Source: Lachnospiraceae bacterium
GTDB taxonomy: Bacteria; Bacillota; Clostridia; Lachnospirales; Lachnospiraceae
Length of the DNA stretch: 64,000 nt
NCBI GenBank assembly: GCA_017619635.1
Contig: JAFZRZ010000016.1
Coordinates: forward strand, 1 to 64,000
Direction of reading: 5' to 3'
The translations under genes were made by a program, and so were the position numbers. Below, one piece after another: positions 12,890 through 18,332 of this stretch; the stretch's first letter is position 1, and each line of letters opens with the position of its first letter. The notes beneath the pieces were generated by a model, which was given only the letters and a program-made list of their open reading frames with translations, was not told where the DNA came from and did no database searches.

Positions 12890-13360
12890 ATGGATAACGA
12901 TCTTAAAAAACAATTTGCAATGCGCATACCGCAGGCCAACAATGTTCAGATGATAATGATCTCCTATGAGATAATAGATGCCTATCTGCAGGAAGCAAAA
13001 GGATATCAGACGGGTTCGGGAGATTATGTCCTTTGTATCGATAAAGCAAAGAGATGCATAGAAGAGATGATGAACAATCTTCACTATGAGTATGATATAG
13101 CTAAGGATTTAAAGCAGATGTATCTTTATATGAAAAAGAGACTGCGCCAGGCTATCTGTGAAAAGGATGCGGATGCCATAGAGGAAGTAAGGAAAATGAT
13201 CAATCAGCTTCACGATTCCTATGAATCCATAGCAGAAACTGATAATTCACAGCCGATGATGCAGAATGCACAGTCTGTTGTCGCCGGTATGACCTATGGC
13301 AAGAGCAAGACTCTGGATGAGGCACCAACTGACATAGAAAACAGAGGCTTCAGGGTATAG
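12890..13360 (+). CDS. fliS: FliS-type flagellin export chaperone
   Basis: The 156-residue helical protein has the FliS pattern: MIMISYEIIDAYLQEA as helix 1 (LVLMLYDGA-like in others), then CIDKAKRCIEEMMNNL, IAKDLKQMYLYMKKRLRQA and a final helix. FliS binds the C-terminus of newly made flagellin, preventing polymerisation before export. It follows flagellin by 31 bases with GGGGAGGAG before the ATG, as expected for a chaperone of that flagellin. It carries an extra tail of about 35 residues past the usual four-helix bundle. Similarity is clear in pattern but not close, so the name is a family assignment. Confidence 0.8.
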   Translation: MDNDLKKQFAMRIPQANNVQMIMISYEIIDAYLQEAKGYQTGSGDYVLCIDKAKRCIEEMMNNLHYEYDIAKDLKQMYLYMKKRLRQAICEKDADAIEEVRKMINQLHDSYESIAETDNSQPMMQNAQSVVAGMTYGKSKTLDEAPTDIENRGFRV

Positions 13361-13388
13361 CTGTTAGTAAATAATTTAAAATGAACCG

Positions 13389-13432
13389 CCGGTTTTTGTG
13401 ACCACTCAGTGGATATGCAGGAACCGGTTTTT
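13389..13432 (+). terminator. terminator after fliS
   Basis: CCGGTT (13389-13394) pairs with AACCGG (13422-13427), enclosing a short inner stem CCAC/GTGG, and TTTTTC follows. It ends the flagellar unit. Confidence 0.65.
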
Positions 13433-13501
13433 CAATTCAGATACAGGAGTATGATTTTGATAAGAGTCAAATTTTATGATATCCATATCGATAATTAATG
13501 C

Positions 13502-13530
13502 TTGACATATATACTGTGCTACGATTATAC
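13502..13530 (+). promoter_or_regulatory. promoter of the leader peptide and ABC locus
   Basis: Perfect TTGACA (13502-13507), 17 bases, then TTATAC (13525-13530). The predicted start near 13537 gives a 20-base leader before the leader-peptide ATG and a transcript of about 190 bases if it stops at the 13693-13724 terminator. The stretch 13361-13713 otherwise holds only the fliS terminator and this regulatory region. Confidence 0.7.
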
Positions 13531-13556
13531 TTTGAAAAAAAGAAAGGAGAACCGAG

Positions 13557-13673
13557 ATGTTAAATCTTAAGCAGAGAAAAACAGAATACACATGCACTTG
13601 GAATATTCATGCGCTTATCATGGATAGTTTTTATAGTGTTTTGCCCTGTATAAGAGATAGGCATCGGTTTTGA
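13557..13673 (+). CDS. 38-residue leader peptide before ABC exporter genes
   Basis: ATG at 13557 is preceded at 7-14 bases by AAAGGAGA, the strongest ribosome site nearby, and the frame runs 38 codons to TGA at 13671. The product begins MLNLKQRKTEYTC and ends IRDRHRF; it has no signal peptide or clear membrane segment. It lies between a consensus promoter and a strong terminator that precedes the ABC genes. This is the same arrangement as the bmrB leader of the Bacillus subtilis bmrCD exporter, where ribosome stalling by antibiotics permits read-through. The peptide sequence itself is not one I recognise, and the stalling ligand is unknown. Confidence 0.6.
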   Translation: MLNLKQRKTEYTCTWNIHALIMDSFYSVLPCIRDRHRF

Positions 13674-13692
13674 TTTATATATATGGATCATG

Positions 13693-13724
13693 ACCACTTA
13701 TCCTTCGGGGTAGGTGGTTTTTTT
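13693..13724 (+). terminator. attenuator terminator with C(UUCG)G tetraloop before the ABC genes
   Basis: An 11-bp stem (ACCACTTATCC at 13693-13703 with 13708-13718) is capped by TTCG closed by a C-G pair, a hyperstable tetraloop, and runs into seven T. It starts 20 bases after the leader-peptide stop and ends 23 bases before the first ABC start codon. GGATAG at 13622-13627 in the leader could pair with its left arm, but no convincing complete antiterminator was seen. Confidence 0.85.
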
Positions 13725-13746
13725 ATGGAAAGATTACGGAAAAGAT

Positions 13747-15585
13747 ATGGAAAATAAAGATTTGGGAAAAGTTAATAGCAATAAGAGAACTGTATTTGCA
13801 AGAACACTTAAGTATTTTCTCAGATACAGGCTGGCTGTTACAGTTCTGTTTATAGTTTACTTTATGCTGGCAGCTATAAGTGTGGCTTGGCCTTACATTA
13901 TGGGTAAGGTACTTTTTGATCATGTGCTGGAAAAGGATGATGTTTATCTTTCCCGCTTTGGATTATCGGGAGAGTATGCTCTTGCACTTTTATTTGTTGC
14001 GATTGTTTTGATCGGATGCAGACTAATCTCAGAGCTTACAAGGAGCATCCAGGGTTCACTGATGGCAAAGGTGGCCACTGCTACTGTGAGAGATATAAAA
14101 TCAGATGTCTTTAATGCCATGAGCAGGCTTTCTTTAAACTTTTACACAAGTAAACAGACCGGAGGGCTGATGACAAGAGTCATGACTGATTCATCACGTG
14201 TAGCCGATTTCTTTATAGACGGTCTGCCGTCGGTTTTTGTTCAGGGTCTCACGATCATAGTCACATTTGTGGTCATGTACAGGCTTAACTGGCAGATGGC
14301 GCTGATCGCATGTATACTGCTGCCACTTTTGGTTTATATGACTGTCAAGTTAAGACCGGGACTGTGGTCTCTTTCAGGAAAGAGACACCGTGCTGAAAGA
14401 TCGGTCTCTGGCAAAGCAAACGATAATCTTACGGGTGCAAGAGTGGTCAAGGCTTTTGGTCAGGAAGAAAAAGAAATCGAGAGATTTTTAGGACCTAACG
14501 ATGATTTAAAGGAAGTTGAGATCAATATTGTAAGGTTAAGAAACAGATTTACGATACTCTATAACATGGTCCAGGAGATATCCAGTATCTGGATATGGAT
14601 CGTTGGTGTGTTCTTTGTATTAAAGACGGAGCAGATAGAACTTGGTGTATTGATAACGTTTGTAGGATATGTTGCCCAGCTTAACGGTCCAATGAATTTC
14701 TTCTCTTATGTTTTCAGGACGTGGGCTGAGAGCATAAGTGCAGCGGAAAGACTGTTTCAGATCATAGATTCAGTGCCTGAGATCACAGAGATAGACCAGC
14801 CTGTGAGCATGAAAGATTCAAAAGGAGAGATAGAGCTTAATGATGTTACATTCGGGTATCTTTCAGATACTCCCGTACTTAAGAATGTGAGTCTGAAGGT
14901 GAGAGAAGGAGAGATGCTGGGGATAGTTGGTCATTCAGGAGCGGGAAAAACCACGCTTGTGAATCTGATCTCAAGACTTTATGACGTTAACAGCGGAAGT
15001 ATAAAGATTGACGGTACTGATGTTAAGGAGCTATCATTATCCGATCTTAGAAGAAATGTGGCACTGGTCTCGCAGGATACATACATATTCATGGGTTCAG
15101 TTGCTATGAACATCGCCTATGGAAACGAAAATGCCACAAGAGCTGATATCATAAGAGCTGCTAAACTTGCAAGTGCACATGAGTTTATCTCAAAACTGCC
15201 GGACGGATACGATACCATAATCGGTGCCTCAGGAAAAGGTTTGTCCGGTGGAGAGAAACAGCGTATATCGATAGCAAGGGCTATACTCGCAGATCCCAAA
15301 ATACTGATACTTGATGAGGCGACTGCCAGTGTCGATACTGAGACTGAGAAAGCAATACAGAATTCTCTTAAGTATCTGGTAAAGGGAAGGACCGTGCTTT
15401 CGATAGCGCACAGACTTTCTACTCTACGTGACGCCGAAAGGCTTATCGTGATAGAGAAGGGAGAGATAGTTGAAGAAGGAACACATGATGAGCTTCTTAA
15501 GATAGAAGACGGTATCTTCCGCAGGTTATATGAGTTGCAGAATAAATCAATGGCATCGCACGGATTGTGGGAGAGCGCGGTTTGA
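13747..15585 (+). CDS. ABC exporter half-transporter, subunit A
   Basis: The 612-residue protein has six membrane segments (about 20-310) fused to an ATPase domain, the half-exporter layout of MsbA/BmrA-type pumps. Walker A is GHSGAGKTT, the signature LSGGEKQRISIARA, Walker B ILILDEATAS with catalytic Glu, and the H-loop is IAHRLS, so this ATPase looks fully active. I chose ATG 13747, with GGAAAAG upstream; the in-frame GTG at 13714 lies inside the terminator stem. It is followed after 15 bases by the DUF1854 gene and pairs with the ABC gene at 16665-18332, probably as a heterodimer. Substrate is unknown; drug export would fit the leader-peptide control but is inference. Confidence 0.88.
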   Translation: MENKDLGKVNSNKRTVFARTLKYFLRYRLAVTVLFIVYFMLAAISVAWPYIMGKVLFDHVLEKDDVYLSRFGLSGEYALALLFVAIVLIGCRLISELTRSIQGSLMAKVATATVRDIKSDVFNAMSRLSLNFYTSKQTGGLMTRVMTDSSRVADFFIDGLPSVFVQGLTIIVTFVVMYRLNWQMALIACILLPLLVYMTVKLRPGLWSLSGKRHRAERSVSGKANDNLTGARVVKAFGQEEKEIERFLGPNDDLKEVEINIVRLRNRFTILYNMVQEISSIWIWIVGVFFVLKTEQIELGVLITFVGYVAQLNGPMNFFSYVFRTWAESISAAERLFQIIDSVPEITEIDQPVSMKDSKGEIELNDVTFGYLSDTPVLKNVSLKVREGEMLGIVGHSGAGKTTLVNLISRLYDVNSGSIKIDGTDVKELSLSDLRRNVALVSQDTYIFMGSVAMNIAYGNENATRADIIRAAKLASAHEFISKLPDGYDTIIGASGKGLSGGEKQRISIARAILADPKILILDEATASVDTETEKAIQNSLKYLVKGRTVLSIAHRLSTLRDAERLIVIEKGEIVEEGTHDELLKIEDGIFRRLYELQNKSMASHGLWESAV

Positions 15586-15600
15586 TGGAAAGGATATGAA

Positions 15601-16137
15601 ATGGACAGCAAGGTAATAGATTTTTTTGAAAAAGAAGCCGAAGAGATGACGGCCATGAATATCATAACTGAAAATGATATATTTGAGCGTACCGAAGGAG
15701 GCTTTCTTAATCTTACTTATAACGGTAAATTATATGAGCGTGTGAAGGTAGTAAGACTGTTTCCGTTTACGGATCCTGACAGTTATATCTCAATAAGAGA
15801 GAATGATGAACGCGCAAAAGAGATCGGCATAATTGAAAATCTGACATCTTTTTCTGATGAAACGGTAAAGCTGATAAATGAACAGCTTGCACTGAATTAT
15901 TACATTCCGGTCATTGAGAAGATAAACAGTATAAAAGATGAATCGGGTAACGCGTATTTTAATGTGACCACGGACAAAGGAGATCATGAATTTGTTATAA
16001 ACATGTCGTCCAATCCGGTCACAAAACTGACAGATACCAGACTTATCATAACCGATCTGGAAGAAAACAGATTTGAGATAAGAGATATAAGAAAACTCAG
16101 TCAGAAGGAATTAAGGAAACTGGATCTGTTTTTATAA
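15601..16137 (+). CDS. DUF1854-type ABC-transporter-associated protein
   Basis: The 178-residue soluble protein resembles DUF1854, with the features GGFLNLTYNGKLYERVKVVRLFPF near the N-terminus, DPDSYISIREND, and ITDLEENRFEIRDIRKLSQKELRKLD near the C-terminus. DUF1854 proteins sit beside pairs of ABC exporters, including ones named for cyanophycin metabolism; no cyanophycin gene is present here. Its position between two ABC subunits, 15 bases after the first, suggests it is an accessory or regulatory subunit. Ribosome site AAAGGA precedes ATG 15601. The biochemical role is not known. Confidence 0.75.
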   Translation: MDSKVIDFFEKEAEEMTAMNIITENDIFERTEGGFLNLTYNGKLYERVKVVRLFPFTDPDSYISIRENDERAKEIGIIENLTSFSDETVKLINEQLALNYYIPVIEKINSIKDESGNAYFNVTTDKGDHEFVINMSSNPVTKLTDTRLIITDLEENRFEIRDIRKLSQKELRKLDLFL

Positions 16138-16174: not shown

Positions 16175-16654
16175 ATGATATTAAGATATGAGATTCCAAA
16201 TAAAATAACAGAGAATATCAAAATGTCTGATGATGAACGTATATACTATGCAGTTCCAATAGATATTGACAGATATGCAAACAGGGCAAATGGAGCATAT
16301 CTTATAGTGACCACGACCAGGATATTGGTATATGACGGAGAAGCATTTGAGAATATCTATGAGATCAAAGACTGCGGTATGGCCAAAGCCGAAGCAAAGG
16401 TCGGTGGAGGGATACTTATTATTAGTCATAATGGTATTGAAAAGATCGTGGCTCATTATTCGGCAAAGCATCTTGTAAGATATGCATATATTGCAAGAGG
16501 TATCAACATCCTGATTTCGGGAAGATTTGAGGAAGTTGAGAGCAGGGAATATGAAAAGATATGTCCTGTATGCGGCCGTGCTATAGGAGGAACAGGAGAA
16601 TGCACCAGATGCTGGTTCAAACAGGCTTCTGACAAAAGTCCTAAAGACGTATAA
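16175..16654 (+). CDS. PH-like / zinc-ribbon domain, likely detached N-terminus of ABC subunit B
   Basis: The 159-residue product has a beta-rich PH-like domain (1-125; RIYYAVPIDIDRY, AYLIVTTTRILVYDGE) and a zinc ribbon with Cys pairs CPVCG and CTRC (about 130-149). In related DUF1854 loci I recall such a domain being fused to the front of the ABC subunit. Here the frame ends 11 bases before the next ABC start after a divergent tail ASDKSPKDV. The downstream ABC frame is open back to 16587 and reads RLLTKVLKTYKKDF just before its ATG, which would continue CTRCWFK if one base were skipped near 16617-16622. I therefore suspect one gene split by a +1 frameshift, natural, mutational or a sequencing error. 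Confidence 0.65.
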   Translation: MILRYEIPNKITENIKMSDDERIYYAVPIDIDRYANRANGAYLIVTTTRILVYDGEAFENIYEIKDCGMAKAEAKVGGGILIISHNGIEKIVAHYSAKHLVRYAYIARGINILISGRFEEVESREYEKICPVCGRAIGGTGECTRCWFKQASDKSPKDV

Positions 16655-16664
16655 GAAAGATTTC

Positions 16665-18332
16665 ATGGGTATATTTGTACTGATGGTACTCGCAGCAGTC
16701 ACAACTCTTTTGAATCCTGAGATCCAAAAGCATCTGATAAATGATGTTCTAAAAGGTGGCGGGGGAATGAGAAAGGCCCTTGTGTTCCTTATGTTCATGT
16801 TCTCGTTAAGTGTTGGTATCGTTGTTGTCAATATATTAAAGAGTAATGCGTCAACAAGACTGGGAGCGAAAATATCAGCTGATCTGAGGCTGGAGCTGTT
16901 TAAGAAATACCAGGAACTCCCGATCAGTTTTATTAATGACAGAAGACCCGGAGAATTATTAAACAGGATAACACAGGATACCTTGTATATAAGACAGTTT
17001 ATGGAGGATGTGTTCTGTAACCTGTTTGCCGTCCTTTTCATATTCATATGGGATGTGCTTTTCATGATGCTGATCAATCTTAAGCTTGCCATGCTTACTT
17101 TTGTATCTGTGCCTTTTGTAGTGTTTATGATCCTCGGTTTCAGAAAGACTGTATATCGTATCTTTCATATGCAGTTTAGAAAGAATGATGAGGTTTCAAG
17201 CAGCCTCCAGGATGTGATATCCGGGATGAGGGTTGTTAAGACTTATGGCAAGGAAAAGGATGAATCGGAAAGGTTTAAGGTCCTGTCGGGGGAATTTGCC
17301 GAAACACAGAGAAGAAATGAGACATTCTGGGCAGTTTTCCAACCCATCATATCTTTCCTTATGGGAATGGGAGTGGTAACTGTAGTGTATTTTGGTGGGT
17401 TGTATGTGTTTGATGGTAGCATGTCACCCGGAGAACTGTACCAGTTCATAACATATACACTTCTTCTGTTTCAGTATATAGAATGGATGAGTCGTATGCC
17501 CAGGGAGCTTACCCAGCTTATAAGCAGCATCGAGAGAATAGATGATATCTTAAGGCAGAAGGTTGATAAAGAGGATGAAGGTCTTGTTCATGATATAAAG
17601 ATAAAGGGAGAGATCACATTCGATCATGCCACCTTCGGATATAAGTCATACCAGCCTGTTTTGGAGGATATCAATGTAACTGTAAAACCCGGTGAGATGA
17701 TCGGTATAGTCGGGGCTTCGGGAACAGGAAAATCGACACTTATAAATCTGCTTATGAGATTGTATGAAGTTGATGACGGAAGGTTACTGATAGACGGGAC
17801 AGATATAAAAGAGATAAGTTTAAGATCGTATCGATCACAGCTTGGAGTTGTTTTGCAGGAGACATTCTTATTCTCAGGTACGATTATCGATAACATAAGA
17901 TTCTCCAAACCGGATGCGACATATGAAGAGATAATAAGAGCAGCAAAGATGGCCAATGCGCATGAATTCATATGCAATCTTAAAGACGGCTATAATACAT
18001 ATGTCGGAGAGAGGGGATCTTCTCTGTCTGGAGGAGAGCGTCAAAGGATAGCGATCGCAAGAGCGATACTTACTGATCCCAGACTTCTTATACTGGATGA
18101 AGCGACATCCAGTCTTGATACGGAAAGTGAATTCATGATACAGAAGGCACTCGAGAGACTGACTGAAGGTAAGACAACATTTGCCATAGCTCACAGACTT
18201 TCGACACTTCAGAAAGCAGACCGGTTAATGGTCATAGACGGACATAAGATAGCTGAGATAGGAACGCATGAAGAACTGCTAGCCCTGAAAGGGATATATT
18301 ATAAACTTTATACGGCTCAGATCACAGCCTGA
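16665..18332 (+). CDS. ABC exporter half-transporter, subunit B (apparently frameshifted from its N-terminal domain)
   Basis: The 555-residue half-transporter starts directly in its first membrane segment (MGIFVLMVLAAVTTLL), has six membrane segments to about residue 270 and a complete ATPase: GASGTGKST, signature LSGGERQRIAIARA, LLILDEATSS with catalytic Glu, and IAHRLS. The ATG at 16665 has only AAGAAAG as a poor ribosome site, and no other start codon lies in its frame back to 16587, where a stop closes it. Translation may depend on coupling or on frameshifting from the upstream PH/zinc-ribbon frame. Together with subunit A it should form the exporter. Terminator at 18342 ends the locus. 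Confidence 0.85.
   Translation: MGIFVLMVLAAVTTLLNPEIQKHLINDVLKGGGGMRKALVFLMFMFSLSVGIVVVNILKSNASTRLGAKISADLRLELFKKYQELPISFINDRRPGELLNRITQDTLYIRQFMEDVFCNLFAVLFIFIWDVLFMMLINLKLAMLTFVSVPFVVFMILGFRKTVYRIFHMQFRKNDEVSSSLQDVISGMRVVKTYGKEKDESERFKVLSGEFAETQRRNETFWAVFQPIISFLMGMGVVTVVYFGGLYVFDGSMSPGELYQFITYTLLLFQYIEWMSRMPRELTQLISSIERIDDILRQKVDKEDEGLVHDIKIKGEITFDHATFGYKSYQPVLEDINVTVKPGEMIGIVGASGTGKSTLINLLMRLYEVDDGRLLIDGTDIKEISLRSYRSQLGVVLQETFLFSGTIIDNIRFSKPDATYEEIIRAAKMANAHEFICNLKDGYNTYVGERGSSLSGGERQRIAIARAILTDPRLLILDEATSSLDTESEFMIQKALERLTEGKTTFAIAHRLSTLQKADRLMVIDGHKIAEIGTHEELLALKGIYYKLYTAQITA

Follow-up and report, generated by a model that had tools for sequence, protein, structure and literature searches.

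Directly before the genes of an ABC-DUF1854-ABC exporter, at positions 13502-13724 of the window (the whole 64-kb stretch of Lachnospiraceae DNA that was analysed), lies a leader that probably acts as a three-state ribosome-mediated transcription attenuator, through which the exporter would be made when early elongation is slow. The basis of this reading is computed, comprising the anatomy of the leader, its pairing, its covariation and its occupancy-dependent folding; from these we infer termination and read-through, the inducer and the exporter substrate. The source genome is 3.0 Mb in size and its nearest named relatives are uncultured Lachnospiraceae. The exact leader type of the window was found in three genomes only, namely that of the window, that of a second species (G019), which encodes a first transporter (ABC1) 94% identical to that of the window, and L073.

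Organization of the leader region

The leader comprises the following elements, all on the forward strand:

13502..13531, +, sigma-70-type promoter TTGACA-18-TATACT (read directly and by tools)
13543..13549, +, leader Shine-Dalgarno sequence (SD) AAAGGAG, same letters in G019 and L073
13548..13555, +, predicted anti-antiterminator 5' strand AGAACCGA, overlapping the leader SD (duplex and MFE fold)
13557..13673, +, leader ORF of 38 codons, MLNLKQRKTEYTCTWNIHALIMDSFYSVLPCIRDRHRF (ATG 13557, TGA 13673)
13640..13646, +, predicted antiterminator strand A, UUUGCCC, pairing with the terminator 3' arm GGGUAGG (13708-13714)
13656..13661, +, predicted antiterminator strand B, GAUAGG, pairing with the terminator 5' arm CUUAUC (13697-13702)
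13664..13671, +, predicted anti-antiterminator 3' strand, the anti-SD UCGGUUUU (duplex and fold)
13692..13724, +, intrinsic terminator, 12-bp stem with C(UUCG)G loop, then T7 (read directly and by tools)

According to a sequence-only reading of this DNA, ABC1 is preceded, in this order, by a promoter, a ribosome site, a frame of 38 codons and a terminator with seven T and a C(UUCG)G tetraloop. Direct reading and tools both confirm the arrangement; the tetraloop and T7 run of the 11-bp terminator given there stand as described, but the stem is 12 bp long when G-U pairs are counted. The stem arms occupy 13692-13703 and 13708-13719, T7 is found at 13718-13724, and 22 nt separate the end of the terminator from the ABC1 ATG (13747). 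In the promoter, the -35 TTGACA (13502-13507) and the -10 TATACT (13526-13531) are spaced by 18 nt and give 11 of 12 hexamer matches. Promoter matches by themselves were no commoner than chance would give (two observed, 3.4 expected in shuffles), but terminators exceeded chance (three observed, 0.4 expected). The leader also folds better than dinucleotide shuffles (z -2.9). In a composite scan that combined an SD, a small ORF, a terminator and SD/ORF and terminator/ORF pairing, the leader at 13502-13724 was the sole match on either strand of the whole 64-kb window, and the same scan of the loci around other ABC genes in this genome, which are short, detected no further leader.

Predicted alternative folds

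In the proposed mechanism, the SD and start region of a leader carrying no ribosome (state 1) would pair with the end of the frame to form the anti-antiterminator, and the terminator would form. During fast translation (state 2) the ribosome would cover the 3' part of the frame, hiding the antiterminator strands, and the terminator would again form. A ribosome held near the start (state 3) would block the anti-antiterminator, the 3' part of the frame would capture both terminator arms, and RNA polymerase would read into the ABC-DUF1854-ABC exporter genes. The exporter would be made under slow early elongation, most likely with ribosome-targeting inhibitors, and the input is likely to be slowed early translation in general rather than a peptide-specific new compound.

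Unconstrained folding of the window leader is consistent with these states. The full-length RNA adopts the SD/anti-SD helix together with the terminator, masking of the start region lets the antiterminator engage both terminator arms, and masking of the 3' end of the frame brings the terminator back. The corresponding terminator probabilities are 0.50, 0.01 and 0.92, the free full-length RNA being only half terminator in the model. Compared with 400 codon shuffles, the switch amplitude gives p values of 0.0025 for the window, 0.0075 for G019 and 0.0175 for L073. Taken alone, the SD helix (-10.4 kcal/mol in the window clade, codon-shuffle p 0.14) and the terminator-arm duplex of the same clade (codon-shuffle p 0.32) are weak. 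The helices of strands A and B are nested in one fold and are paired in the window, G019 and L073 (column-shuffle p 0.024 for strand A and 0.021 for strand B, joint p 0.001), and a G-U to A-U change in strand B of L073 keeps the pairing. An antiterminator is accordingly a prediction from folding and from conservation in three genomes, strongly supported only in some ortholog groups and with weaker statistics in the clade of three genomes to which the window belongs, and the anti-antiterminator is predicted from the SD/anti-SD helix in the full-length fold, which covaries in orthologs. The earlier proposal of ribosome-mediated attenuation with the bmrB layout is supported by the predicted antiterminator and anti-antiterminator, by occupancy-dependent folding that switches the terminator and by orthologs with compensatory changes; the antiterminator that RNA folding had been expected to reveal corresponds to UUUGCCC and GAUAGG, which are predicted to capture both terminator arms.

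Apparent selection on the leader in close relatives

The leader blocks of the window and G019 are 93% identical in DNA sequence, with 83 of 86 positions identical from promoter to SD and the promoter itself unchanged, whereas the DNA just upstream of the block is not conserved (52 of 122 columns match). L073 carries the same promoter hexamers with an 18-nt spacer and a compensated version of the predicted anti-antiterminator, GAGAAUC x GAUUCUUCUC. Eleven bp of the terminator are kept in G019 and L073, two pairs varying. A search of 20 genomes of the genus with the leader DNA returned G019 alone.

Eight nonsynonymous changes and one synonymous change distinguish the leader frames of the window and G019, and 97% of third positions are identical in the leader versus 65% in ABC1. 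Because pS is 0.044 and pN 0.087 in the leader, compared with 0.513 and 0.029, respectively, in ABC1, selection appears to act on the RNA and not on the peptide. The leader tract may have been transferred recently between the window species and G019.

Leaders that act through the nascent peptide, of the erm or tnaC type, are known for other resistance genes, and here such a peptide would sense one, perhaps new, compound while the ribosome is held at a defined codon. G019 and L073 both retain the frame, including a shared C-terminal LPCxxDxHR stretch; however, antiterminator strand A falls on the LPC codons, the RTDFAFRTP sequence of other orthologs coincides with RNA pairing segments, and the eight-to-one ratio of changes between the closest species and the wide differences among ortholog peptides also argue against peptide-specific stalling, which we regard as unlikely. 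The conserved peptide of stalling leaders such as erm and tnaC is not found, pN exceeding pS and the peptides varying among orthologs. Of the two expectations that the sequence-only reading attached to this frame, conservation in relatives holds for the frame but not for its peptide, and the suggestion that the peptide points to a new sensed compound is not supported by the pattern of changes, the variation among orthologs and the explanation of RTDFAFRTP by RNA pairing. As a candidate conserved stalling peptide, RTDFAFRTP was rejected, the motif being an RNA pairing segment.

Leaders upstream of orthologous operons

The ortholog sample consisted of 80 orthologous loci together with 30 stretches that came from other genera and other families. 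An SD-led frame and a terminator, judged partly by eye, precede about 25 orthologous operons, and their leader peptides range from 24 to 63 codons and differ widely. The leaders are patchy: they occur in several parts of the ABC1 tree that are separate from one another, and in many orthologs none was detected. Most ortholog leaders have two pairings, one joining the SD to the 3' part of the frame and the other joining a segment close by to the 5' arm of the terminator; the latter pairing is not significant for L146, L169 and L171. The SD pairing is exemplified by GGAGUGCGAA x UUCGCGCUCC in L076 versus GGAGGACGAA x UUCGUACUCC in L080, and by GGAGACAAU x AUUGUCUCC in L169 versus GGAGGCAGU x AUUGCCUCC in L171. 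Partner permutation, in which related sequences are used, indicates that both the SD/anti-SD pairing (p<5e-5) and the terminator/ORF pairing (p 0.0006) are self-specific. In a hand-made alignment of eight leaders, double changes affect 7 of the 11 pairs of the SD helix and fill 17 cells compared with 6.3 in shuffles, none of 500 shuffles reaching 17 and no slid register of the helix coming near it.

For 20 leaders, transcripts ending in the terminator loop were used to assess how far the frame captures the terminator 5' arm. In most of these, capture is high with early and low with late occupancy, the late loss being partly a consequence of hiding the pairing strand itself; with early occupancy it exceeds the shuffled mean in 20/20 leaders (combined p 3e-6 over 13 representatives). 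At full length, the terminator wins at equilibrium in many ortholog leaders whatever is hidden, and the antiterminator would therefore have to form first, during transcription.

A ligand-binding riboswitch or a protein-controlled antiterminator with an incidental small ORF was also considered. Riboswitches likewise alternate between terminator and antiterminator folds, and a PyrR-like Rfam match is present but weak (E about 1). Against this explanation, which is very unlikely, no Rfam match reaches the gathering score in window stretch 13300-13900 or in eight ortholog loci, no conserved aptamer-like core is seen, the ortholog leaders sharing only the SD/anti-SD, antiterminator and terminator pairings, and every leader fitting the plan has an SD-led frame. 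The PyrR and trpB matches were rejected at E near 1.

Recurrence in other gene contexts

The composite scan was extended to both strands of ortholog loci totalling 0.91 Mb. Its energy cut-offs were chosen once the first leaders were already known, and the loci were picked around ABC genes, which favours such neighbours; matches could have fallen anywhere in the scanned loci. Eleven matches precede the ABC-DUF1854-ABC operon (L101 via an HTH gene) and there are five others; within this 0.91 Mb the composite motif recurs nowhere but in front of ABC exporter operons and one ABC-F gene. Four of the five others (L131, L132, L134 and L136) are upstream of the ABC-DUF1854-ABC operon. The genes were read in L131 alone (L131:1390-5297), where a second ABC exporter pair follows the leader and immediately precedes that operon, and the leaders of L132, L134 and L136 are similar to it. 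The fifth match, with SD GGAGGTATCGAA, then CGTACCTCC and a terminator, is a leader organized in the same way that precedes an ABC-F gene at L083:505-2258, the product of which has its best NCBIfam match, under the cut-off, to a ribosomal-protection-like family. At L101:4971-5474 the gene downstream of the leader encodes a small HTH regulator and extends into the start of the ABC1 frame, and a similar HTH gene precedes ABC1 in L095. A strict pattern for one leader subtype, applied to 397 genomes of the family, yielded neither a match nor a new context.

It is possible, although we advance this tentatively, that these leaders belong to an undescribed, Lachnospiraceae-wide class of leader RNA that would sense ribosome dwell near the start codon independently of the peptide, with the leader SD as one anti-antiterminator strand, and that has come to stand in front of an ABC-F gene as well as several ABC exporter operons.

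Another view of the region is a plain constitutive or partial terminator next to a chance small ORF, with the exporter expressed by fixed read-through or from another promoter. The chance-level promoter match, the other promoters that a simple scan may have missed and the many orthologs in which no leader was detected are in keeping with it, but the very low synonymous divergence of the leader, the failure of most codon shuffles to give a switching fold, the covariation of the alternative pairing in orthologs and the recurrence of the motif before exporters and an ABC-F gene make it very unlikely.

Relationship to known attenuators

Ribosome-mediated attenuation has been shown by experiment for bmrB and vmlR (PMC4191407, PMC9226507), and as far as can be judged from sequence the window leader is of the same kind, the defining parts being common. 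These include an SD-led short ORF upstream of the gene, also present in G019, L073 and other orthologs, and an intrinsic terminator between the ORF start and the gene. Like the window leader, the bmrB leader of Bacillus subtilis bmrCD has an ORF before a two-subunit ABC exporter (PMC4191407), and its translation is needed for induction (PMC4191407). In bmrB, however, the terminator is located inside the ORF, rather than 3' of the stop codon as in the window, and no function was settled for the anti-anti-terminator (PMC4191407). In the window the leader's own SD is predicted to be a strand of the anti-antiterminator. The window exporter, unlike bmrCD, belongs to a DUF1854-linked family, and its switch is a prediction from sequence.

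The B. subtilis vmlR leader similarly contains a uORF, an anti-antiterminator, an antiterminator and an intrinsic terminator (PMC9226507). There, early stalling of a ribosome in the uORF frees the antiterminator, and uORF coding variants from other Bacilli have been tested (PMC9226507). The vmlR uORF has three codons, its SD is single-stranded and an ABC-F protein is regulated (PMC9226507), in contrast to the 38 codons, paired SD and exporter of the window. The cplR leader of Clostridioides difficile, also in the Clostridia, shares a uORF, anti-SD elements, premature termination and an ABC-family gene with the window leader (PMC10201436), but has a 3-codon uORF (MRI) and an ABC-F gene, and its regulation is described as translational attenuation (PMC10201436).

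The window leader, which has no Rfam match, looks like an unrecorded relative of these antibiotic-response switches, and a literature search found no paper joining Lachnospiraceae with leader-peptide attenuation of ABC genes. It would tie the DUF1854-linked exporter family to translation stress, suggesting that the family serves in drug defence in bacteria of the rumen and gut. The approximately 25 natural variants, in which pairing is kept while the peptides change, can be used to tell RNA-based sensing directly from peptide-based sensing.

The exporter operon and flanking DNA

The genes downstream of the leader are as follows:

13747..15585, +, ABC1, exporter-type ABC transporter with membrane and ATPase domains
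15601..16137, +, DUF1854 protein (PF08909)
16175..16654, +, 159-aa domain with a zinc-ribbon-like CPVC...CTRC motif, corresponding to the N-terminal part of ABC2 in G019
16665..18332, +, ABC2, exporter-type ABC transporter with membrane and ATPase domains

A GTG at 13714, within the terminator, is also in frame with ABC1 but is unlikely to serve as its start. ABC1 of the window, G019 and L073 is without the N-terminal extension of approximately 160-180 aa found in nearly all other orthologs, and the leader adjoins this shortened gene (13747-15585). ABC2 is split at window positions 16600-16680, where G019 has one open 730-aa frame; an apparent loss of 11 nt after GECTRC relative to G019 results in a frameshift that parts the 159-aa zinc-ribbon-like N-terminal domain from a 555-aa transporter, and the split represents either a real deletion or an assembly error.

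The best NCBIfam matches of ABC1, ABC2 and the DUF1854 protein are NF052233/NF052234, the cyanophycin metabolism-associated ABC transporter and DUF1854 protein, all three falling under the curated cut-offs (for NF052233, 880 bits compared with 523 for ABC1 and 496 for ABC2). A link to cyanophycin was rejected, no cyanophycin synthetase above the cut-off having been detected in the source genome. A literature search found no paper mentioning DUF1854.

A flagellin gene and a FliS-like gene are located upstream of the leader. An inverted repeat (AACCG...CGGTT) with T-runs at 13388-13436, 3' of the FliS-like gene, is also found in G019 and probably represents the terminator of the flagellin unit.
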